In this document: positions 36,253-51,063 of the stretch, piece by piece
Numbering within the stretch: position 1 is the first letter of the stretch
How the letters are laid out: each line of letters begins with the position of its first letter
Assembly (NCBI GenBank): GCA_030604825.1
Contig: JAUVVB010000005.1
Span: 1-64,000 of the forward strand
DNA from: Chloroflexota bacterium
GTDB lineage: Bacteria; Chloroflexota; Dehalococcoidia; E44-bin15
Direction: 5' to 3'
Length of the DNA stretch: 64,000 bases
Made by a program: the position numbers and the translations under genes
The notes under the pieces: generated by a model
What the model was told of the DNA's origin: nothing
Databases searched by the model: none
The model's input: the letters and a program-made list of their open reading frames with translations, nothing else

Positions 36253-37989
36253 GTGTTCGAGAAGGATAGGCTTGAGGAAATCGAGAGGAAACGAAAGGAG
36301 TGGGAGGAGGGGACGCTGAGGCAGTCCCTGGAACGATTTGGAGTGACGGAGAGTCCCCAGAAGTTCTATACCCCCCTGGACATAGAGAACCACGATTTCC
36401 TGGAAGCTGTGGGATTTCCCGGTGAATACCCCTTCACCGCCGATGTCTATCCCACTGCCGTGCCGACGCTGGCCCTGATGGGCGCTGCCCCTACCGAGCT
36501 GGTGAGGGCGGGGATGTATTCCGGTTATGGGACCGCGGAGGATACCAGGGATTACTATAACTACATGAGGTCGATAGGCCGTCCCGGTGGGCCCAACATC
36601 GCCTTCGACCTTCCTACCCAGTGCGGCTATGATTCAGACCACCCCACGGCTCGGGGGGAGGGGGGCAAGGTGGGGGTGGCGGTGGACACCCTGAGGGACA
36701 TGGAGGTGATCTATGAGGCCTTTGTGGGCGATAATGACCTGGACAAGATCGCCTCCAACTTCACCATAAACGCCCCCTGTAACGTCATCCTCACCATGTA
36801 TTTCGCCCTGGCGGAGAAGAGGGGCATCCCTCCAGACAGGCTGAGGGGGACTCCCCAAAACGATATCTTGAAGGAGTTCGTTGCCCACGGCACCTATATC
36901 TTCCCACCAAAGCCATCGATGAGGATGGTGAGGGATACCATCACCTACTGCACCGAGCACGCCCCCCTGATGAACACCATCAGCATCTGTGGCTATCACA
37001 TGAGGGAGGCCGGCGCCACCGGACCCCAGGCGGTCGCCTTCACCTTCGCCAATGCCATAGCCTATGCCCAGCTGGCGATGGATGCCGGCCTGGATGCGGA
37101 TACCTTTCTCCCCCGCTTCACCTTCCTCAGTTTTGGCGGCAGCATGGAGTTCTTCGAGGAGATCGCCCTTCAGCGGGCGGCAAGGAGGATGTGGGCCAAG
37201 ATAGCCAAAGAGCGCCTTGGCGCCAAGAACCCCAGGTGCTGGATATTGCGCCAGGCGGCTGCCGGCCATATCGGGGAGGTGAGCAAGACGGTGCAGCGCC
37301 CTCTCAATAACTTCATTCGCGCTGTCATCGGAGGGGTGGCCTCCTCCTTGAGCGGGGGAGGTCCCTTCACTGGATTCCCCTACGATGAGCCCCTGGGGCT
37401 GGGGCATAGCCTTGAGGGGTGGCAGTTAAACATCGATGCCATGAGGGTCCTGATGCATGAGGCCAAGCTCTGCGAGGTTGCAGACCCCTTGGCCGGCTCC
37501 TACTACGTGGAATCCCTTACCGACCAGATGGAGCAGGAGGCGTGGAAGGAGCTGGAGAAGATCGATGCCCTAGGGGGTGCTGTGGCTGCCATTGAGCGGG
37601 GTTATATGCAGCAGGAGATCACCAAGAGCGCCTATCGTTTCCAGCAGGAGGTGGAGAGAAGGGAGAAGGTCGTTGTGGGGGTGAACCGGTTTACCGGGGA
37701 GCATGAGCTGGAGGTCACCACCACCAGGCTGGTGGAGCACCCCTATGACCCGGTGAAGCGGGCCCAGGCCGAGGAGAAGCAGATAGCAAACCTGGATCGG
37801 GTGAAGAGGGAGCGGGATAATGAGAAGGTAAATGCCTGCCTCATGCATCTGGAGGAGGCGGCCAGGGATGAGAAGGTAAATCTCATTCCCATAATCCTGG
37901 AGGCAGTGAAGGAGTATACCTCCCTGGGGGAGATATGTGGCGTGCTGAGGGATGTATTCGGGGAATACCAGGCCTATGAGGCGCTTTGA
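36253..37989 (+). CDS. methylmalonyl-CoA-mutase-like large subunit, altered pocket
   Basis: 578 aa, the TIM-barrel catalytic part without a B12-binding domain. AFDLPTQCGYDSDHP, GTPQNDILKEFVAHGTYIFPP, SISICGYHMREAG and RMWAKIAKERLGAKNP identify the adenosylcobalamin acyl-CoA mutase family. Two changes stand out: the residue matching the carboxylate-binding Arg207 of Propionibacterium mutase is His (FVAHG instead of MVRNT), and the segment between DVYPT and YSGYG differs from the usual RPWTIRQYAGF. The B12-binding small subunit is not nearby. So the substrate may not be methylmalonyl-CoA. GTG start with GGAGGT; first gene of the operon. Confidence 0.87.
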   Translation: MFEKDRLEEIERKRKEWEEGTLRQSLERFGVTESPQKFYTPLDIENHDFLEAVGFPGEYPFTADVYPTAVPTLALMGAAPTELVRAGMYSGYGTAEDTRDYYNYMRSIGRPGGPNIAFDLPTQCGYDSDHPTARGEGGKVGVAVDTLRDMEVIYEAFVGDNDLDKIASNFTINAPCNVILTMYFALAEKRGIPPDRLRGTPQNDILKEFVAHGTYIFPPKPSMRMVRDTITYCTEHAPLMNTISICGYHMREAGATGPQAVAFTFANAIAYAQLAMDAGLDADTFLPRFTFLSFGGSMEFFEEIALQRAARRMWAKIAKERLGAKNPRCWILRQAAAGHIGEVSKTVQRPLNNFIRAVIGGVASSLSGGGPFTGFPYDEPLGLGHSLEGWQLNIDAMRVLMHEAKLCEVADPLAGSYYVESLTDQMEQEAWKELEKIDALGGAVAAIERGYMQQEITKSAYRFQQEVERREKVVVGVNRFTGEHELEVTTTRLVEHPYDPVKRAQAEEKQIANLDRVKRERDNEKVNACLMHLEEAARDEKVNLIPIILEAVKEYTSLGEICGVLRDVFGEYQAYEAL

Positions 37990-38004: not shown

Positions 38005-39567
38005 ATGGGCAAGGAGATGGAGGAGAGGATACAGCAACTCAGGGAGACCAAAGAGCGTGCCCACATGGGTGGAGGGCCGGAGAAGATAGAGAAGCAGCAC
38101 CAGAAGGGAAAGCTTACCGCTCGGGAGAGGATCGATTACCTGTTGGATGCGGGGAGCTTCGTCGAGTTCAACCCGCTGGTGGGACATCGCAACGGGGCCC
38201 CTGGCGATGGCATCGTGTCGGGGCATGGCACCATAGATGGCAGGGTTGTTTGCATCTACTCCCAGGATGCCACCGTTCTCGGGGGCTCCATAGGCATGTT
38301 GCACGGCTATAAGATGTATCGCACCGTGGAGATGGCACTGGACATGGGGGTTCCCGTTATTGGGCTCCACGATTCCCCTGGGGCCAGGGCAGCCAGGGTG
38401 GGGGAAAGGGGGGCGGAGCTTGCCCCCAGGGAGGAGAAGAGCGGCGGCTCCGTTTTCTTCCCCAACACCCAGGCCTCCGGGGTGGTGCCCCAGATCGCGG
38501 CCATCCTCGGCTCCTGCGCCGGCATCTCCGTCTATTCTCCAGCGCTCATGGATTTCGTGTTCATGGTGGATGGCACCAGCCATATGTTCATCACCGGGCC
38601 CCGCATCGTCAGGACGGTGACCGGGGAGGATATAACCATGGAGGAGCTGGGGGGGGCTATGGTTCATACCCAGATTTCGGGGGTGGCTGACCTGAGGACC
38701 CCCACAGAAGAGGAGTGCCTGGAAAAGATAAAGAAGCTGCTCGGCTTTCTCCCCGACAACTGCAACCAGAAGTCCCCTTTCCTCGACGTCGGCGACGACC
38801 CAAACCGCCTCATCGATGAGCTGGAGGTGATCGTCCCCGACGACCCGGATAAGCCCTATGATATGCATGAGGTGGTCACCAGGGTGGTGGACAACGGGGA
38901 TTTCCTCGAGATAAAGGGGGAGTTTGCCCCTGAGATGATCGTTGGCTTCGGCCGGCTTGCCGGTCAGACCGTGGGCATCGTGGCCAACCAGCCCATGCAT
39001 TATGGGGGGGCATTAACCATTGATAGCTCGGATAAGCAGGCCAGGTTCATGAGAACCTGTGATGCCTTTAACATCCCCATAATCCTGCTGGTGGATACCC
39101 CGGCCTATGCCCCGGGCTCGGAGCAGGAGCAGGGCGGGATCATCCGCCACGGGGCTAAGGTCCTCTATGCCCTCTGCGAGGCGGCGGTTCCCCGCATCGC
39201 GGTGGTACTTCGCAAGTGCTATGGAGGGGGCAACCTGGGGATGGGCGTTGTGCCCGGCCTGGGCACCGATTTCGTCTTCGCCTGGCCCATTGCCGAGATG
39301 GGGGTGATGGGGGCTAAGGAGACGGTGCAGCTGTTCTATGCCGATCAGATCGCCAAGGCGGATAACCCGCAGCAGTTTCTGGAGGAGAAGGTAAAGGAGT
39401 ATCACGATCGATATGCCAATCCCCTCTATGTGGCCTCCGTTAGCTCCCACATACAGGATGTTATCGAACCCAGGGAGACCAGGAGGTGCCTCTGCGCCGC
39501 CCTTAAGCTGCTGGAGGGGAAAAGGCAGACCAGGTATCCCAAGAGGCATGGCAACATCCCCTTATGA
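38005..39567 (+). CDS. mmdA: biotin-dependent carboxyltransferase, MmdA-like
   Basis: 520 aa. Twin crotonase-fold carboxyltransferase of the propionyl/methylmalonyl-CoA type: LTARERIDYLLDAGSFVEF, SGHGTIDGRVVCIYSQDATVL, GARAARVGERGAELA, ITGPRIVRTVTGEDITMEELGGA, then LVDTPAYAPGSEQEQGGIIRHGAK and CYGGGNLGMG in the second half. No biotin carboxylase gene is nearby, while a membrane beta subunit is, so it probably removes CO2 from a malonyl-type thioester onto biotin. 15 bases after the mutase gene. Confidence 0.92.
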   Translation: MGKEMEERIQQLRETKERAHMGGGPEKIEKQHQKGKLTARERIDYLLDAGSFVEFNPLVGHRNGAPGDGIVSGHGTIDGRVVCIYSQDATVLGGSIGMLHGYKMYRTVEMALDMGVPVIGLHDSPGARAARVGERGAELAPREEKSGGSVFFPNTQASGVVPQIAAILGSCAGISVYSPALMDFVFMVDGTSHMFITGPRIVRTVTGEDITMEELGGAMVHTQISGVADLRTPTEEECLEKIKKLLGFLPDNCNQKSPFLDVGDDPNRLIDELEVIVPDDPDKPYDMHEVVTRVVDNGDFLEIKGEFAPEMIVGFGRLAGQTVGIVANQPMHYGGALTIDSSDKQARFMRTCDAFNIPIILLVDTPAYAPGSEQEQGGIIRHGAKVLYALCEAAVPRIAVVLRKCYGGGNLGMGVVPGLGTDFVFAWPIAEMGVMGAKETVQLFYADQIAKADNPQQFLEEKVKEYHDRYANPLYVASVSSHIQDVIEPRETRRCLCAALKLLEGKRQTRYPKRHGNIPL

Positions 39568-39615
39568 TACCTCTGTGAACCGGAAGGGCTTTGATAGGCT
39601 TGATGTGGAGCGAAG

Positions 39616-39900
39616 ATGGCTGACCTAGGCTCTGCCCTGGAGATAACGCTGATGGCCTTAGCCACCCTTCTCGTCATCTCCCTCTTTTTCGTGGCGCTGA
39701 CCCGCGGCCTTCAGTGGCTGACGAGGGTGACCAGCGGGGAAAGGGTGGAGGAGCGGAGGGCTGTCATCCCCAAGGAGAAAGAGGAGAGGGCGGTCATTGC
39801 CATGGCGGCAGTAGCGGCCTATTTAGAGGCGGAGCGGCAGGCAGAGGCCAGGGCTTCTTCATCCGAATCCCCGAAGCAGAAAGGGAGAGATGAAGCGTAG
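39616..39900 (+). CDS. OadG/MmdD-like small membrane subunit
   Basis: 94 aa. One N-terminal helix (EITLMALATLLVISLFFVAL) followed by a charged, Ala/Glu-rich cytoplasmic tail, the build of OadG and MmdD, which tether the carboxyltransferase to the membrane pump. The usual C-terminal His/Pro zinc motif is not visible. It overlaps the biotin carrier gene by 11 bases. Confidence 0.75.
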   Translation: MADLGSALEITLMALATLLVISLFFVALTRGLQWLTRVTSGERVEERRAVIPKEKEERAVIAMAAVAAYLEAERQAEARASSSESPKQKGRDEA

Positions 39901-40306
39901 ATTCAGGATCACCATAAAGGGTGAGAGCTACGAGGTTGAGGTCGAAGAGATAGGACCAGCCCAGAAGGAGCCTTCAACGGCCACCCCTTCTGCTGCCCCA
40001 GAAGCTCCCCCCGCGACAAAGGCAGGGCCATCTTCCGTTGCCCCAGAAGCGCCCCCAGCCGCAGAGGCGGGATCCCCTTCCATTGCCGTGGAGGAGGTGA
40101 TCAGCGCCCCCATGCCGGGGACGGTGATATCCGTCAACGTCACGGTTGGCGATGCGGTGAAGGATGGCGATGTTTTGCTCATAATGGAGTCGATGAAGAT
40201 CCAGAACGAGATAACCGCTCCCAGAGATGGGATGGTAAAGGAGATACATGTGTCCCAGGGCAGGTATGTGAGAAGGGGGGAGCGTCTAATCACCGTTATG
40301 GGGTGA
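39890..40306 (+). CDS. mmdC: biotin carrier protein 1 (MmdC/OadA-tail type)
   Basis: 138 aa. An N-terminal beta segment (RFRITIKGESYEVEVEEI), a Pro/Ala linker made of two near-repeats of APEAPPA, then a biotinyl domain: ISAPMPGTVISVNVTVGD and ESMKIQNEITAPRDG with the biotin-accepting Lys in ESMKI. Carries CO2 between MmdA and the membrane pump subunit. The Met-Lys-Ile context differs from the commoner Met-Lys-Met. Confidence 0.9.
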   Translation: MKRRFRITIKGESYEVEVEEIGPAQKEPSTATPSAAPEAPPATKAGPSSVAPEAPPAAEAGSPSIAVEEVISAPMPGTVISVNVTVGDAVKDGDVLLIMESMKIQNEITAPRDGMVKEIHVSQGRYVRRGERLITVMG

Positions 40307-40394
40307 AAAGGGACATCCGGTTTCAGGAGCGTCTTTTGGGAATTGGGTAGTTTTTTCCTTTTCGTGATTTTTTCAAATGGTTTACTTCAGTTGA

Positions 40395-40435
40395 CCTACG
40401 GCAACACCATATCGATCGCCGTAGGATTGCTTTTT
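40395..40435 (+). terminator. hairpin with T-run between the two biotin carrier genes
   Basis: CCTACGGC and GCCGTAGG make an exact 8-base stem with a 15-base loop, followed four bases later by TTTTT (40431-40435). It could reduce expression of the downstream genes rather than end the operon, as no clear new promoter follows. Confidence 0.5.
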
Positions 40436-40468
40436 ATCTACCGGTAATTAAAAGGAGGATGGAGTCCT

Positions 40469-40711
40469 ATGTTCATCCAGCAACAGGGGGGAAATGAAGA
40501 TGTGGTTATCTCCCCGATGCCGGGAACGATTATCTCCATCAAGGTGAAGGTTGGCGATGCGGTGAAGGCTGGGGATGTCCTGCTGGTGTTGGAGTCGATG
40601 AAGATCCAGAATGAAATAACCGCTCCCAGAGATGGCACCATCAAGGAGATCCTTGTGACTGAGGGGAAATATGTGAAGAGGAGGGAGTCCCTGATCTCTA
40701 TCAGGGCATAA
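40469..40711 (+). CDS. biotin carrier protein 2, 80 aa
   Basis: A bare biotinyl domain: ISPMPGTIISIKVKVGDAV and ESMKIQNEITAPRDG with the same biotin Lys context as carrier 1. The DNA around this motif is nearly identical to that at 40187-40232, indicating a recent tandem duplication that lost the N-terminal part. Strong AAAAGGAGG site. Why two carriers are kept is unknown. Confidence 0.88.
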   Translation: MFIQQQGGNEDVVISPMPGTIISIKVKVGDAVKAGDVLLVLESMKIQNEITAPRDGTIKEILVTEGKYVKRRESLISIRA

Positions 40712-40717
40712 TAGAGG

Positions 40718-41848
40718 GTGCCAGACAGGGTTATCGACTTTTTCAGCTTCACCGGTTTTGCCCATTTTTACTGGGGCAATCTGGTGATGATCCTCGTCGG
40801 GTGCGTTCTCATCTATCTTGCCATCAGGAGGCGCTATGAGCCCCTGCTGCTGATTCCAATCGGTTTCGGCATCATACTGGCCAACCTGCCCTTAACTGGC
40901 TTGATGGCGACGGGCGGCGAGGGAGAGCCAGCGGGGCTTCTCTCATATCTTTATCTGGGGGTGAAGTTTGCCATATTTCCCCCCTTGATCTTCCTCGGCA
41001 TTGGGGCGCTGACCGATTTCAGCCCCCTGCTGGCCAACCCCAAGACCTTCTTTTTGGGTGCTGCCGCCCAGATTGGCATTTTCGCCACCCTGTTCGGTGC
41101 CCTGGCTCTGGGTTTTACCTTGAAAGAGTCGGGGAGCATCGGGATCATCGGGGGTGCCGATGGCCCCACCGCGATATACACCTCAGCCCTGCTTGCTCCC
41201 CATCTCATCGGGCCGGTGGCCATTGCCGCCTATTCCTACATGGCTCTGGTACCCGTCATTCAGCCGCCAATAATGAGGCTGCTCACCACCAAGAAGGAGA
41301 GGGCCATTATGATGAAGGAGCTGCGCCCCGTTTCCCAGCTGGAGCTCATCCTGTTCCCCATAATCATTACGGTGCTGGTCATTCTCTTTCTGCCCAAGGC
41401 AGCACCTCTCATTGGAATGATGATGTTTGGCAATCTGCTGCGCGAGAGCGGCGTGGTGGAGAGGCTGGCCAGAACGGCGGGGAATGAGCTGATAAACATC
41501 GTTACCCTCTTTCTCTGCCTCTCGGTGGGGGCAACGATGAACGCCCAGTTTGTGCTGAGCCTGATGGTCATAGAGATCTTCATCCTCGGCATTTTCGCCT
41601 TTGCCTTGGGCACAGCGGGCGGCGTTTTGATAGGGAAGCTGATGTGCAAGCTCACCAAGGGGCAGATCAATCCCCTCATTGGCGCTGCCGGGGTTTCGGC
41701 GGTTCCCATGGCAGCCAGGGTGGTCCAGGCTGAGGGGCAGCGGGAGGATCGGCGCAACTTCCTCCTCCATCACGCCATGGGGCCAAACGTTGCCGGTGTG
41801 GTCGCCTCAGCCACGGTGGCCGGATTATTGATAGCTTATTTGACATAA
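40718..41848 (+). CDS. mmdB: Na+-translocating decarboxylase beta subunit (OadB/MmdB type)
   Basis: 376 aa with about nine to eleven hydrophobic helices. IGIIGGADGPTAIYTSALLA holds the conserved Asp used for Na+ binding in the Klebsiella OadB, followed by YSYMALVPVIQPPIM; GNLLRESGVVERLARTA and AAGVSAVPMAARVVQAEGQ are also characteristic. Decarboxylation of carboxybiotin drives Na+ out across the membrane. GTG start 6 bases after biotin carrier 2. Confidence 0.93.
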   Translation: MPDRVIDFFSFTGFAHFYWGNLVMILVGCVLIYLAIRRRYEPLLLIPIGFGIILANLPLTGLMATGGEGEPAGLLSYLYLGVKFAIFPPLIFLGIGALTDFSPLLANPKTFFLGAAAQIGIFATLFGALALGFTLKESGSIGIIGGADGPTAIYTSALLAPHLIGPVAIAAYSYMALVPVIQPPIMRLLTTKKERAIMMKELRPVSQLELILFPIIITVLVILFLPKAAPLIGMMMFGNLLRESGVVERLARTAGNELINIVTLFLCLSVGATMNAQFVLSLMVIEIFILGIFAFALGTAGGVLIGKLMCKLTKGQINPLIGAAGVSAVPMAARVVQAEGQREDRRNFLLHHAMGPNVAGVVASATVAGLLIAYLT

Positions 41849-41854
41849 GGAGGT

Positions 41855-42637
41855 ATGATGGCGGAACAAGTTCTTCTGGTGGAGCAGGAAGGAAATATTT
41901 GCACCCTCACCATCAACCGACCGGAGAGGCGAAATGCCCTTACCGCTGAGGTGCTTTACCGGCTGGGCGATGCCCTCCAGGCGCTAAAGGATGTCAGGGT
42001 GGTGGTGCTCAGGGGCGCTGGGGAGAAGGCTTTCTCCTCGGGGATGGATCTGGGGAGCAGGGCTGAAGTTTCGCAGGAAGAGGTGATAAAAAAGGGCCAT
42101 CCCCTGGACTATGCCATCCACAGCATCATCGATTTTCCCTTCCCCGTCATTGCCATGATCTATGGCGCTGCCATGGGGTCTGGCTGCGACCTGGCAGCTA
42201 CCTGTGACCTGCGCATTGCTGCCGACAATGCCAGGATGGGGATAAACCCGGTTAAGATAGGAGGGGTGTATTACCCCGGGGGCATCCGGCGCCTGATCAA
42301 TGCGGTGGGCCTTTCCCAGGCAAAGGAGCTCTTCTTTACCGGCAGATTCATCGATGCCCAGCGGGCAAGGGAGATTGGCCTGGTGGATCACGTGGTTCCC
42401 GCTGAGGAGCTGCCCTCCTTCACCTATGAGCTGGCCGGGGAGATTGCCGAGAACGCCCCCCTGGCGGTGAGCGCCACAAAAGTGATATTCAACAGGCTGC
42501 TCAAGCATCAGAGGCTGAGCGCTGAGGATGAGGCTGAGATCTTAGCCCTCATCGATACGGTGGAGAAGAGCGAGGATAGAAGGGAGGGCCTCAGGGCTTT
42601 TATCGAAAAGAGGAAGCCCAACTTTACCGGCAGATAG
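41855..42637 (+). CDS. crotonase-fold protein resembling methylmalonyl-CoA decarboxylase YgfG
   Basis: 260 aa. The catalytic Glu positions of enoyl-CoA hydratase are changed: GSGCDLAATCDL (Asp for Glu) and GINPVKIGGVYYPGG (Val for Glu). The latter resembles the TPVNLGVPYN loop of E. coli YgfG, whose Tyr140 is conserved here, and the C-terminus AFIEKRKPNFTG is also YgfG-like. The His66 region differs (SSGMDLG). A malonyl-type thioester decarboxylase fits its place after the pump genes better than a hydratase. AAGGAGG precedes the ATG. Confidence 0.75.
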   Translation: MMAEQVLLVEQEGNICTLTINRPERRNALTAEVLYRLGDALQALKDVRVVVLRGAGEKAFSSGMDLGSRAEVSQEEVIKKGHPLDYAIHSIIDFPFPVIAMIYGAAMGSGCDLAATCDLRIAADNARMGINPVKIGGVYYPGGIRRLINAVGLSQAKELFFTGRFIDAQRAREIGLVDHVVPAEELPSFTYELAGEIAENAPLAVSATKVIFNRLLKHQRLSAEDEAEILALIDTVEKSEDRREGLRAFIEKRKPNFTGR

Positions 42638-42653: not shown

Positions 42654-42893
42654 ATGGCAGACTATGTTTTCCGCTACCGGCTGGAGGTTGAGGACAAGGG
42701 GGAGCCAATATACCACGACCCCTTGGTGGAGATGATCAGGGAGCAAATGGAGAACCTGCTCAACATCGTCATCCCGGTTGAGGGGCAGCGGGAGGTGAAG
42801 ATCGACGGTTTTAAGCTGCTTCGGGACAGGGAGCGGATATATAACATCTTCGCCAAGGAAGAGGAAAATCCGGGCGATCTCTTCCCCATTTGA
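42654..42893 (+). CDS. small protein related to the radical SAM N-terminal domain, 79 aa
   Basis: ATG 42654 with GGGGATTGGGG upstream. The segment DPLVEMIREQMENLLNIVIP and VKIDGFKLLRDRERIYNIF aligns with the first 60 residues of the next gene (PRIEFIKKQLESLL, VQVDGFRLKELKHWL). It is therefore a stand-alone paralogue of that domain. It may be a substrate, a partner or a regulator of the radical SAM protein. No name is known to me. Confidence 0.75.
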   Translation: MADYVFRYRLEVEDKGEPIYHDPLVEMIREQMENLLNIVIPVEGQREVKIDGFKLLRDRERIYNIFAKEEENPGDLFPI

Positions 42894-42920
42894 TGCCTCT
42901 GAGGGATAGGGGGTGATGTT

Positions 42921-44519
42921 ATGAACTCCTTTCAGGACATCAGGAATGCCGCTTTATACGAGCCAAGGATTGAGTTCATCAAGAAGCAGCTGGAGAGCCT
43001 GCTTCGGGTGGTGGACCTGGAGAAGGGTGGGGAGGTTGTCCAGGTTGATGGCTTTCGGCTGAAGGAGCTGAAGCACTGGCTGGTTTCCTCCCGCTGCGAC
43101 CCGGCGGAGGTGTTTGAATATGCCTCAACCAGGTGCGACTGCGATTGCCTCTTTTGCTACAACAAGGGGAATCCCCCCTCGGTGGCATTGGGGAATCTGA
43201 GAAGACCCCCAAAAGAGGAACTTGAGGAGATGAAAACCAGGCTCGATTATTTCTTCCCCAAGGCAAAGCAAGGCCTCTTCTCCAGCTTGGGGGAGATCTA
43301 TGAGGCAGCGATGCACCCCCACTTCCTGGAGGTGCTTAGGCTGCTGCGGGAGAAAACCGAAAAGCCGTTTCGCATCACCACCAACGGGAAGACCCTCACC
43401 GAAGAAACCATCTCCCATTTGGCGGAGCTCAAGCCGATATACCTTTACCTTTCCCTCAACAGCGCCTCCGCGGAACGGCGAAGAAGGCTGATGAGGGACA
43501 GAAACCCCGGGATTGCCATCGATTCCCTGCCCCTGCTCAAGGAGGCGGGGATTCCCTATGCCGTGGTGATCGTCCCCTGGCCGGTTGACTCCCTTTCCCA
43601 GATGCTGGATGACCTAACCGATACCATCGCCTATGCCGATAAGCATGATTGCCACCTGGTGGAGATAAATCTCCCCGGTTACTCCCAATACTTCTCCTCC
43701 AAAAAGCTCTTTGACCTCGATGAGGTGTGGGGTGAGACCGTCTCCCACATCAGAAAGTTGAGGGCGAAGACCACCTCGCCCATCGTTGCCATGCCCACCA
43801 TGTATGAGGAGAACCTCTATGAGGAGCGCAAGAACCTGCCCCAAATCATAGGCCTGGTCAAGAACTCCCCCGCCCAAAGGGCAGGGCTGAACAAGGGGGA
43901 CCTCATCCTGGAGATAAACGGGATTTCGGTGCCGACAAGGCCTCAGGCCAGGGACCTCCTTTTCATGCTCCAGCAGAGCGATAATCGCCAGGCCACCATC
44001 GCCGTTGACAGGGAAGGAAAAGCCCTGGAGCTGAAGTTGGACCTGAACGATTTCTGCTATCCCTACTCCAGGGAGACGGATAATCACCTGGGGATCATCT
44101 TCATGGGGACGGGGCTGAGGTTGAGCTACCTGGAAGGGCTGAAGGAGATCGTGGATGCCCATAAGGCAAGGCATGTCCTCTTCCTCTCCTCGACCCTGAT
44201 GAAGCCCACCTTCAAGCAGTGCCTCACCCAGTCCCACCTCTTCGACGACCCGAGGCTGAGGATAGACATTCAGGTCCCCAGAAACAACTTCTTTGGGGGC
44301 AATGTTTTCATGGGGGATTTGCTGCTGGTTCAGGACTTCATCGACTTCATCAAGGAGTATCTAGAGAAGAACGCCAAGCCCGATCTCATCGTCATACCCT
44401 CCTCCCCCTTCAACCTGGGAGAGTGGGGCCGGGACCTTACGGGAAGGGTCTACCTGGAAATCGAGAGGGGGGTGGGAATTCCGGTGGAGCTTCTACAGTG
44501 TGCCACCATCTATGATTAG
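42921..44519 (+). CDS. radical SAM protein with internal PDZ domain
   Basis: 532 aa. Residues 1-60 repeat the domain of the small upstream protein. The radical SAM core begins with CDCDCLFCYNKG (CxxxCxxC at about residue 72) and continues with FRITTNGKTL and LYLSLNSASAERRRRLM. A PDZ domain follows near residues 295-375 (LVKNSPAQRAGLNKGDLILE). The C-terminal 150 residues (RHVLFLSSTLMKPTFKQCL, PDLIVIPSSPFNLGEWGRDL) recall DUF512. Known DUF512 proteins have the PDZ at the N-terminus, so the order here is unusual. Reaction unknown. Confidence 0.82.
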   Translation: MNSFQDIRNAALYEPRIEFIKKQLESLLRVVDLEKGGEVVQVDGFRLKELKHWLVSSRCDPAEVFEYASTRCDCDCLFCYNKGNPPSVALGNLRRPPKEELEEMKTRLDYFFPKAKQGLFSSLGEIYEAAMHPHFLEVLRLLREKTEKPFRITTNGKTLTEETISHLAELKPIYLYLSLNSASAERRRRLMRDRNPGIAIDSLPLLKEAGIPYAVVIVPWPVDSLSQMLDDLTDTIAYADKHDCHLVEINLPGYSQYFSSKKLFDLDEVWGETVSHIRKLRAKTTSPIVAMPTMYEENLYEERKNLPQIIGLVKNSPAQRAGLNKGDLILEINGISVPTRPQARDLLFMLQQSDNRQATIAVDREGKALELKLDLNDFCYPYSRETDNHLGIIFMGTGLRLSYLEGLKEIVDAHKARHVLFLSSTLMKPTFKQCLTQSHLFDDPRLRIDIQVPRNNFFGGNVFMGDLLLVQDFIDFIKEYLEKNAKPDLIVIPSSPFNLGEWGRDLTGRVYLEIERGVGIPVELLQCATIYD

Positions 44520-49353: not shown

Positions 49354-51063
49354 TCATGGCCTCTTTACCAGAGACCAGAGCGTTCTTAGCGGCCTCAGCG
49401 GGATGGGGGCGATGGGGAGCTCCAGCTCCCTCCACGAGGTGGACATGTTCACCCGATCCACCGTGGCCTTGATCTGAGAAAGTCGCTGCTCCCGCCCTGG
49501 TTCCCCGGCGGCAACTATTTCATCGATGAGGCGGAGCATCTCCAGGGAGCTGTTTACGCGCCTTTCAGCGGCCTGGGCCACCTCCCTTGAGATGGAGCCA
49601 TGGCCTGCCTTGAGCCGATTGAGGCGGAGCATCGCCTCATAGGTGGTGTGGACGATCTGCTCGCGGCTCATCCACTCCGTCTCATAGTTCAGGGTGTACT
49701 TCCAGCTTGGCTCAAGGAGCGCCCGGCGATGCTCCTCCAGGCTGCGGTAAAATAGGCGGTAGCCGTAGCGCTGCGGATCTTCGAAGGCGAGGCTACCCGG
49801 GTCAAGGAAGGGGGCAAGGGGGGAGATAAAGGGGGAGACCCTCTTATCTCGGCCGAATCTATCCAGTAGAAAGCCGCAGTAATCGATGGTATCCATCACC
49901 GAACTGGGGGTCTGGTGGGGCAGGCCGATCATGAAGAAGACGTCCAGCCTGCCGCAGCCCGCCTCCAGCGCCCCCTCTATGGTCTCCTCCAGCGCCTCAT
50001 TGGAGTAGCCCTTGCCTATAGCCTTTCTCACCTCTGGGTGATGGGATTCGGGGGATATTTCAAGGCAGAAGCCGGGGCAGGCCTGGCCCATCCTTTGGAG
50101 AAAGCTTTTGGGTGCCGGGCCAAACAGCTCCAGGATGATCTGGTTCTTCTTTCTCTCATTGGCCAACAGTTCGAGGAGCCGATATGCGTATTCCTCCCCC
50201 GGCTGGCGGATGTCTCCCAGGATGAAGATGGGGCCTTTGGTGATGCGGCTGATCCTTTTCACATCATGGGCCACTGCCTCCGCGGGGCGGAAGGCAGGAC
50301 GCTCTCGGTTAAACATCCCCCTCAAGGCGGCGGAGGAGGCACCGCAATAGATGCAGTTCTGGGTACAGCCACGACAGGTGAGCACCGCAGTGATGGGGTA
50401 GCGCAGCCAGCGCTGGAAGGGGAGATAATTCAGGAGGTCGCGGTATCTAACTGCGGACTGCACCATATGGTCATAGTAGTGAATCATAAACCCGTCCAGG
50501 TCATCGGGCACGTAGCAAAGGGGGTTCTGCTGCACCTTACCCCTCTCATCTCGCCAGGTGAGGTTGGGCACTCCTTGGGGCTCTCTGTCCGCCAGGATGC
50601 ACTCCAGGAGCTGGCGAAGGGGCTCCTCCGTGGTGTCGCCGCGGAGCACATAGTCAACCTCGGGATAATCCATAAGCTCCTTCTGGTAGTAGGAGGCGGA
50701 TAGCCCGCCGATAACCAGCCTGGAGCTGGGGTGATACCTCTTAACCATGCGGGCGATCTCGATGGCACCCTGGGCATGGGGCAGCCAGTGCAGGTCGATG
50801 CCAAACAGGGGGGATTTGAGGCTCTGTATAAGCCTTTCGGCATCGAATTTCCGGTCGCGGAGCATGCGCACCGCCAAATTTACGATGCGCACTTTGAAGC
50901 CGGCGCCCCCCAGATGCTCGGCGATGCTGGCAAACCCTATGGGGTACATCTCGAAGATGGGGGAGGAGGGGATGAGGTCGCTGATGGGGCCATAGAGGAT
51001 CGTCCTCTGGCGAAAGTCATAGATGCTGGGAGGGTGAAGCAGAATCAGGTCCGGCTGGGGCAA
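49354..51063 (-). CDS. B12-binding radical SAM protein
   Basis: 569 aa. N-terminal cobalamin-binding-type Rossmann domain (PIGFASIAEHLGGAGFKVRI, ARMVKRYHPSSRLVIGGLSA) without a clear DxHxxG, so base-off ligation is not evident. Radical SAM motif CRGCTQNCIYCGAS near residue 230. EISPESHHPEVRKAIGKGY and DVFFMIGLPHQTPSSV follow. It matches the group of archaeal and anaerobe proteins once named for Thermoplasma Ta0216. Substrate unknown. Confidence 0.88.
   Translation of the reverse strand: MPQPDLILLHPPSIYDFRQRTILYGPISDLIPSSPIFEMYPIGFASIAEHLGGAGFKVRIVNLAVRMLRDRKFDAERLIQSLKSPLFGIDLHWLPHAQGAIEIARMVKRYHPSSRLVIGGLSASYYQKELMDYPEVDYVLRGDTTEEPLRQLLECILADREPQGVPNLTWRDERGKVQQNPLCYVPDDLDGFMIHYYDHMVQSAVRYRDLLNYLPFQRWLRYPITAVLTCRGCTQNCIYCGASSAALRGMFNRERPAFRPAEAVAHDVKRISRITKGPIFILGDIRQPGEEYAYRLLELLANERKKNQIILELFGPAPKSFLQRMGQACPGFCLEISPESHHPEVRKAIGKGYSNEALEETIEGALEAGCGRLDVFFMIGLPHQTPSSVMDTIDYCGFLLDRFGRDKRVSPFISPLAPFLDPGSLAFEDPQRYGYRLFYRSLEEHRRALLEPSWKYTLNYETEWMSREQIVHTTYEAMLRLNRLKAGHGSISREVAQAAERRVNSSLEMLRLIDEIVAAGEPGREQRLSQIKATVDRVNMSTSWRELELPIAPIPLRPLRTLWSLVKRP

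Follow-up and report, generated by a model that had tools for sequence, protein, structure and literature searches.

A putative two-chain class 2 cobalamin-dependent radical SAM enzyme linked to B12-dependent acyl-CoA mutase genes in Dehalococcoidia

Two adjacent genes in a Dehalococcoidia genome, one for a 79-aa protein and one for a 532-aa radical SAM protein, probably encode a two-chain class 2 cobalamin-dependent radical SAM enzyme that carries out a radical methylation, with a protein of the B12-dependent acyl-CoA mutase pathway as its likeliest substrate. The genes lie in a stretch of 64,000 nucleotides (hereafter the window) that is part of contig C14 of the source genome (G000, 1.37 Mb). 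The features on which the argument draws are as follows:

36253..37989, + strand: MCM-like acyl-CoA mutase large subunit, which opens the same-strand gene run (family and subfamily searches)
38005..41848, + strand: Na+-pumping acyl-CoA decarboxylase genes (carboxyltransferase, two biotin carriers, beta subunit), a local neighbor (family matches)
41855..42637, + strand: crotonase/enoyl-CoA hydratase family gene, the most conserved upstream neighbor (family matches, loci compared)
42654..42893, + strand: 79-aa small protein, read as the detached first copy (D1) of an N-terminal tandem domain (ORF, BLASTP, homolog comparison)
42711..42818, + strand: shared-domain core, residues 20-55 of the small protein, YHDPLVEMIREQMENLLNIV...VKIDGFKL (BLASTP, profile-profile)
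42921..44519, + strand: 532-aa radical SAM-PDZ-DUF512 protein, putative class 2 cobalamin-dependent radical SAM enzyme (Pfam, alignments)
42957..43061, + strand: D2, the second domain copy, within the large protein, residues 13-47 (BLASTP, profile-profile)
43134..43157, + strand: CX3CX2C cluster motif, C72, C76 and C79, then Tyr80 (9-member alignment)
43842..44045, + strand: PDZ domain, residues 308-375, between radical SAM and DUF512 (Pfam)
44112..44411, + strand: DUF512 (cobalamin-binding) region, residues 398-497 (Pfam, structure alignments, PMC11659888)
44319..44321, + strand: Leu467, corresponding to Leu366 of csDUF512 on the lower axial side of cobalamin (alignment, PMC11659888)

The shared N-terminal domain and its pairing with the radical SAM chain

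Residues 21-55 of the small protein align with residues 13-47 of the large one at 40% identity over 35 residues (BLASTP, E 7e-7), and profiles built from 13 homologs of each copy match with a probability of 96.4% and E 1.1e-9 (hhalign), at a score of about 50 against a top score of 15 among 100 column-shuffled controls. From these comparisons we conclude that the 79-aa protein and the N terminus of the large chain have a real domain in common, as the initial annotation had claimed; it had named a lack of significant profile similarity as the result that would overturn the claim, and the similarity is significant. The residue pattern described there is also real, except that the Tyr-to-Ile spacing is unequal, with seven residues in the small protein and six in the large one. 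The two copies have diverged in sequence: D1 begins with a Phe-x-Tyr strand, and D2 carries an invariant Glu-Pro-Arg plus a downstream Trp and Glu. A MAFFT alignment of small and large chains together placed the small proteins on the second copy and was discarded. No Pfam family matched the 79-aa protein or the first ~65 residues of the large one, no NCBIfam family matched the small protein, and PDB profile searches with D1 or D2 returned nothing significant. AlphaFold gave a pLDDT of 51 for the small protein (4 sequences) and 41 for a natural fused homolog (600 aa, 5 sequences), values too low to build on.

Among 393 genomes of the class, the search with a radical SAM profile yielded 14 members, 13 of them full-length and one (G360) a fragment, with no member beyond the class in a phylum sample, and the D1 profile matched the identical 14 genomes. 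In a second order both profiles matched the same 6 of 151 genomes; G360 belongs to both sets, which leaves 19 distinct genomes. D1 and the radical SAM protein are both present in all 19, and neither occurs alone in any genome searched. D1 is fused in frame as the first tandem copy at the N terminus of the radical SAM chain in 12 of the 19 (G037, G047, G061, G117, G285, G329 and G097 in the first set; G769, G781, G796, G818 and G839 in the second order), giving chains of ~600-650 aa where complete. Six genomes (the window's family and G034) have D1 as a gene of its own immediately upstream, and in G360 a free-standing D1 gene follows the radical SAM fragment, with two other genes between them. 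A tree of 13 members needs two changes between fused and separate forms; its rooting is not settled, and a fused ancestor with later splits fits.

When two chains occur naturally fused, they are classically taken to interact as parts of one enzyme. Because D1 is fused to the radical SAM chain or encoded near it in the 19 genomes, the small protein is, on this comparative evidence, a domain or subunit split off from the enzyme and not its substrate or competitor. The initial annotation had offered the roles of substrate, adaptor and competitor: that of an adaptor, taken as an enzyme subunit, fits a domain that is obligately paired and often fused, whereas the substrate and competitor roles are contradicted by the 12 genomes in which D1 is the N terminus of the radical SAM protein itself. 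It had also held that its idea would be refuted if homologs commonly lacked the small gene, and most relatives do lack a separate gene, but they carry the small domain in fused form and never lack it.

We accordingly rate it very improbable that the 79-aa chain serves as a ribosomal precursor or another protein substrate recognized through the shared domain. Such a role would suit its size, its position, the domain in common with the enzyme and the surroundings of the separate D1 in G360, whose neighbors are an HxsC-like radical SAM gene and an 86-aa ORF; against this, D1 is so often part of the enzyme chain, the conserved core of the small chain is the shared domain while the C-terminal tail varies among homologs, and known leader-binding or precursor families gave no match. 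The GDLFPI tail of the small protein, which had been suggested as a ligand of the PDZ domain, is not conserved. The separate small proteins end in PI, YL, YL, PL, PL, ER and NP, and PDZ binding of the tail finds no support as a general mechanism because the fused forms have no free C terminus there and the separate tails vary. Since the last residue is hydrophobic in 5 of the 7, such binding is still conceivable within the window's family.

Domain composition of the large chain and proposed reaction

Pfam positions match the order that had been claimed for the large protein (unknown domain, radical SAM, PDZ, DUF512-like), with D2 followed by Radical_SAM at residues 69-230 (1.4e-16), PDZ_6 at residues 312-364 (1e-11) and DUF512 at residues 398-497, the last at 20.4 bits in one scan of the window protein and 24.1 in another, just below the Pfam cut-off of 25. 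All 13 C-terminal regions scanned match PF04459, weakly (E up to 1, best 5e-7). Compared with DUF512 structures, the C-terminal profile matched 9cg1 with E 0.0017 and 9cg2 with E 0.57 (insignificant alone) at the same motif, NNFFGGNxxxGDLL, where the corrin-facing Leu366 of csDUF512 falls on Leu467, a residue invariant in the aligned members. An invariant Ser424 lies near the place expected for the Thr/Ser at the dimethylbenzimidazole tail, where the alignment is inexact. The cluster cysteines C72, C76 and C79 are invariant in nine aligned members, and the residue after the third, where an aromatic side chain is expected between cluster and cobalamin, is Tyr in most members and Cys in G005, G008, G769, G781 and G796. 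One copy, at L047 (G329:C34, 1036-2916), has the third cluster Cys displaced by one (IFRCNKG versus IFCCNKG in relatives) and one residue missing at the corrin-facing motif, and is either decayed or an assembly error.

DUF512 is a cobalamin-binding domain, and four DUF512 proteins have been shown to bind cobalamin, to transfer a methyl group from SAM to it and to make 5'-deoxyadenosine; DUF512 proteins were isolated with adenosylcobalamin, one with 5'-deoxyadenosine above the cobalt (PMC11659888). A review places DUF512 proteins together with Mmp10 in class 2 of the cobalamin-dependent radical SAM enzymes (PMC13331322). Because DUF512 is known to bind cobalamin, and the DUF512 matches, although weak, come with a kept corrin-side Leu, we regard the pair as a putative class 2 cobalamin-dependent radical SAM enzyme that is split over two chains and has its domains in a new order; the assignment rests on sequence features.

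In the mechanism that we propose, the large chain would provide a [4Fe-4S]/SAM radical domain, the PDZ domain and a C-terminal DUF512 predicted to bind cobalamin, and the 79-aa chain, as the first tandem N-domain copy, would be expected beside D2 on the large chain in a complex. The reaction would then proceed in three steps: (i) SAM methylates cob(I)alamin on DUF512; (ii) a second SAM yields a 5'-deoxyadenosyl radical, which takes a hydrogen from the substrate; and (iii) methylcobalamin gives its methyl group to the substrate. The tandem N-domains and PDZ could hold a protein substrate, namely the mutase, its B12-binding subunit or the crotonase.

Gene neighborhood, the mutase pathway and candidate substrates

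In the window, the 79-aa gene is followed after a 27 bp gap by the 532-aa gene, both ORFs having plausible start sites, and the pair belongs to a same-strand run from the MCM-like mutase (36253) through the Na+-pumping decarboxylase and the crotonase, with intergenic gaps of -11 to 162 bp. Two biotin-carrier genes stand back to back in the decarboxylase cluster (39890-40711). About 5 kb downstream of the pair, another radical SAM-like gene (49354-51063) is encoded on the opposite strand and carries a B12-binding domain at its N terminus. Of the 18 loci compared, 10 have a crotonase immediately upstream of the domain pair and 2 have it one gene farther away; 4 have a B12-binding mutase subunit 14-117 bp downstream, and 3 have MeaB (mutase chaperone) 82-84 bp downstream. 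CaiB and MmgE/PrpD genes are also recurrent neighbors, and electron-transfer flavoprotein and hydantoinase genes flank the enzyme in G061 and G285. The enzyme genes thus travel with a crotonase, an MCM-like mutase, a B12-binding subunit or MeaB. The initial annotation had linked the pair to the decarboxylase and proposed checking whether the two genes always co-occur beside it; D1 was present in 19 of 19 genomes, but across the 18 loci the decarboxylase is absent near most relatives and adjoins the pair only in the window's family and, roughly, in G061. It was rejected as the partner, and its linkage is local, the recurrent partners being crotonase and B12-mutase genes.

Mutases of the window gene's subfamily occur in all 13 class genomes with the enzyme, although two have fragments only. 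Under a strict cut-off, the subfamily was found in 21 of 393 genomes, including 11 of the 13 enzyme carriers, and the co-occurrence has P 3e-14 by genome and ~1.3e-8 by genus, a count that leaves some shared ancestry. Ten genomes have the subfamily without the enzyme, most of them incomplete, but G040, G058, G160 and G217 are 94-96% complete. Nearly all subfamily relatives keep Tyr89 and Arg207 of methylmalonyl-CoA mutase, a pair that we take to be tied to its dicarboxylic acyl-CoA substrate, and this conservation suggests that the subfamily also acts on a dicarboxylic acyl-CoA. The window mutase (36253-37989) has His at the Arg207 position, which we read as a local change, its closest relatives (83% identical) having Arg. 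Mutase paralogs are numerous in G000 and G005, and further copies carry one in-frame stop each (G000:C21:3151-4869, TAG; G005:C11:3311-5011, TGA). Our literature search found no paper linking DUF512-type enzymes of this kind to the mutase.

Given the tandem N-domains, the PDZ domain and the precedent of Mmp10, a protein substrate appears likeliest. The more specific idea that the pair is a dedicated protein-modifying radical methylase, maturing the mutase, B12 subunit or crotonase of the B12-dependent acyl-CoA mutase system, is one we put forward tentatively. Close behind a protein of the mutase pathway comes a CoA ester: the same two-chain enzyme may, though we consider it somewhat doubtful, act on a small-molecule acyl-CoA of the mutase/crotonase/decarboxylase pathway, with the N-domains and PDZ completing or capping the active site. 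The PDZ domain of csDUF512 fills part of an incomplete barrel (PMC11659888), and the neighbors here are enzymes of CoA esters (crotonase, mutase, CaiB, MmgE/PrpD, acyl-CoA dehydrogenase and decarboxylase). A relative in Sinorhizobium, described below, also has the surroundings of small-molecule biosynthesis. However, two N-domains plus a PDZ domain exceed the needs of a small substrate, the enzyme is constant while its pathway neighbors change, and we know of no cobalamin radical SAM enzyme acting on CoA esters.

In 7 loci the gene directly downstream is that of a B12-binding subunit or of MeaB. This position, together with the adenosylcobalamin found in isolated DUF512 proteins and the 5'-deoxyadenosine above the cobalt in one (PMC11659888), would also suit a repair enzyme that makes or reloads adenosylcobalamin from SAM for the mutase. 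We consider this role hardly probable, as two relatives sit in clusters without a mutase and ordinary ATP-dependent adenosyltransferases are present in 12 of the 13 genomes (PF01923 and PF02572 searches), so no replacement is needed; that the enzyme replaces an adenosyltransferase was rejected on the same ground.

Two more distant relatives lie in other contexts. The one in Sinorhizobium sojae, far from Chloroflexota (31% identity over 98%), lies on plasmid pSJ05684b (L128, 7353-16042) beside two B12-binding radical SAM genes, a methyltransferase and an aldo/keto reductase, in an undescribed, biosynthetic-looking cluster. In G360, locus L112 (G360:C24, 1-2394), which is cut by the contig end, comprises in order the 3' end of the relative, the HxsC-like radical SAM gene (373 aa), the 86-aa ORF, which matched no known family, and the separate D1, and resembles a peptide-modification locus. 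Both are multi-radical-SAM clusters with no mutase nearby at those loci, and the substrate may therefore differ by lineage within the family.

Relation to known systems

A 2025 review poses the question of which reactions DUF512 enzymes catalyze (PMC13331322), and the linkage to the B12-dependent acyl-CoA mutase pathway suggests where to seek the reaction of this class. The known DUF512 proteins are without an assigned substrate; because the present pair has conserved neighbors and a clear partner pathway, and occurs naturally as two chains, its substrate and the roles of its extra domains are open to co-expression and mass spectrometry. If our reading is correct, a DUF512 enzyme would for the first time have an assigned function, the mutase system would be one in need of radical post-translational modification, and the tandem N-domain would represent a new module for recognizing substrates or partners, one able to detach as a subunit.

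The initial annotation had compared recognition through the shared domain with that of leader-binding domains. PqqD-like RRE domains are likewise small and either fused to or apart from a radical SAM enzyme, but the analogy found no sequence counterpart, as the 13 members gave no match to RRE/PqqD-type families in Pfam or NCBIfam; moreover, D1 itself matches no family there, two tandem copies are present here, and no precursor is evident. Mmp10, the Arg methylase of methyl-coenzyme M reductase (TIGR03278), shares the class and cofactors and is a precedent for methylating a metabolic enzyme, but it has neither a PDZ domain nor N-domains of the D1/D2 type, and the TIGR03278 match is 13.4 bits against a cut-off of 350. 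In csDUF512 (9cg1) and pfDUF512 (9cg2), too, a radical SAM domain precedes a C-terminal DUF512, and the Leu on the lower side of cobalamin is kept here (PMC11659888). A PDZ domain is present in both csDUF512 and the large chain; in csDUF512, however, it is N-terminal and precedes the cluster loop, whereas here it follows the radical SAM domain, and the pair differs from both proteins in its weak sequence similarity and in its extra tandem N-domain, carried partly on a separate chain.
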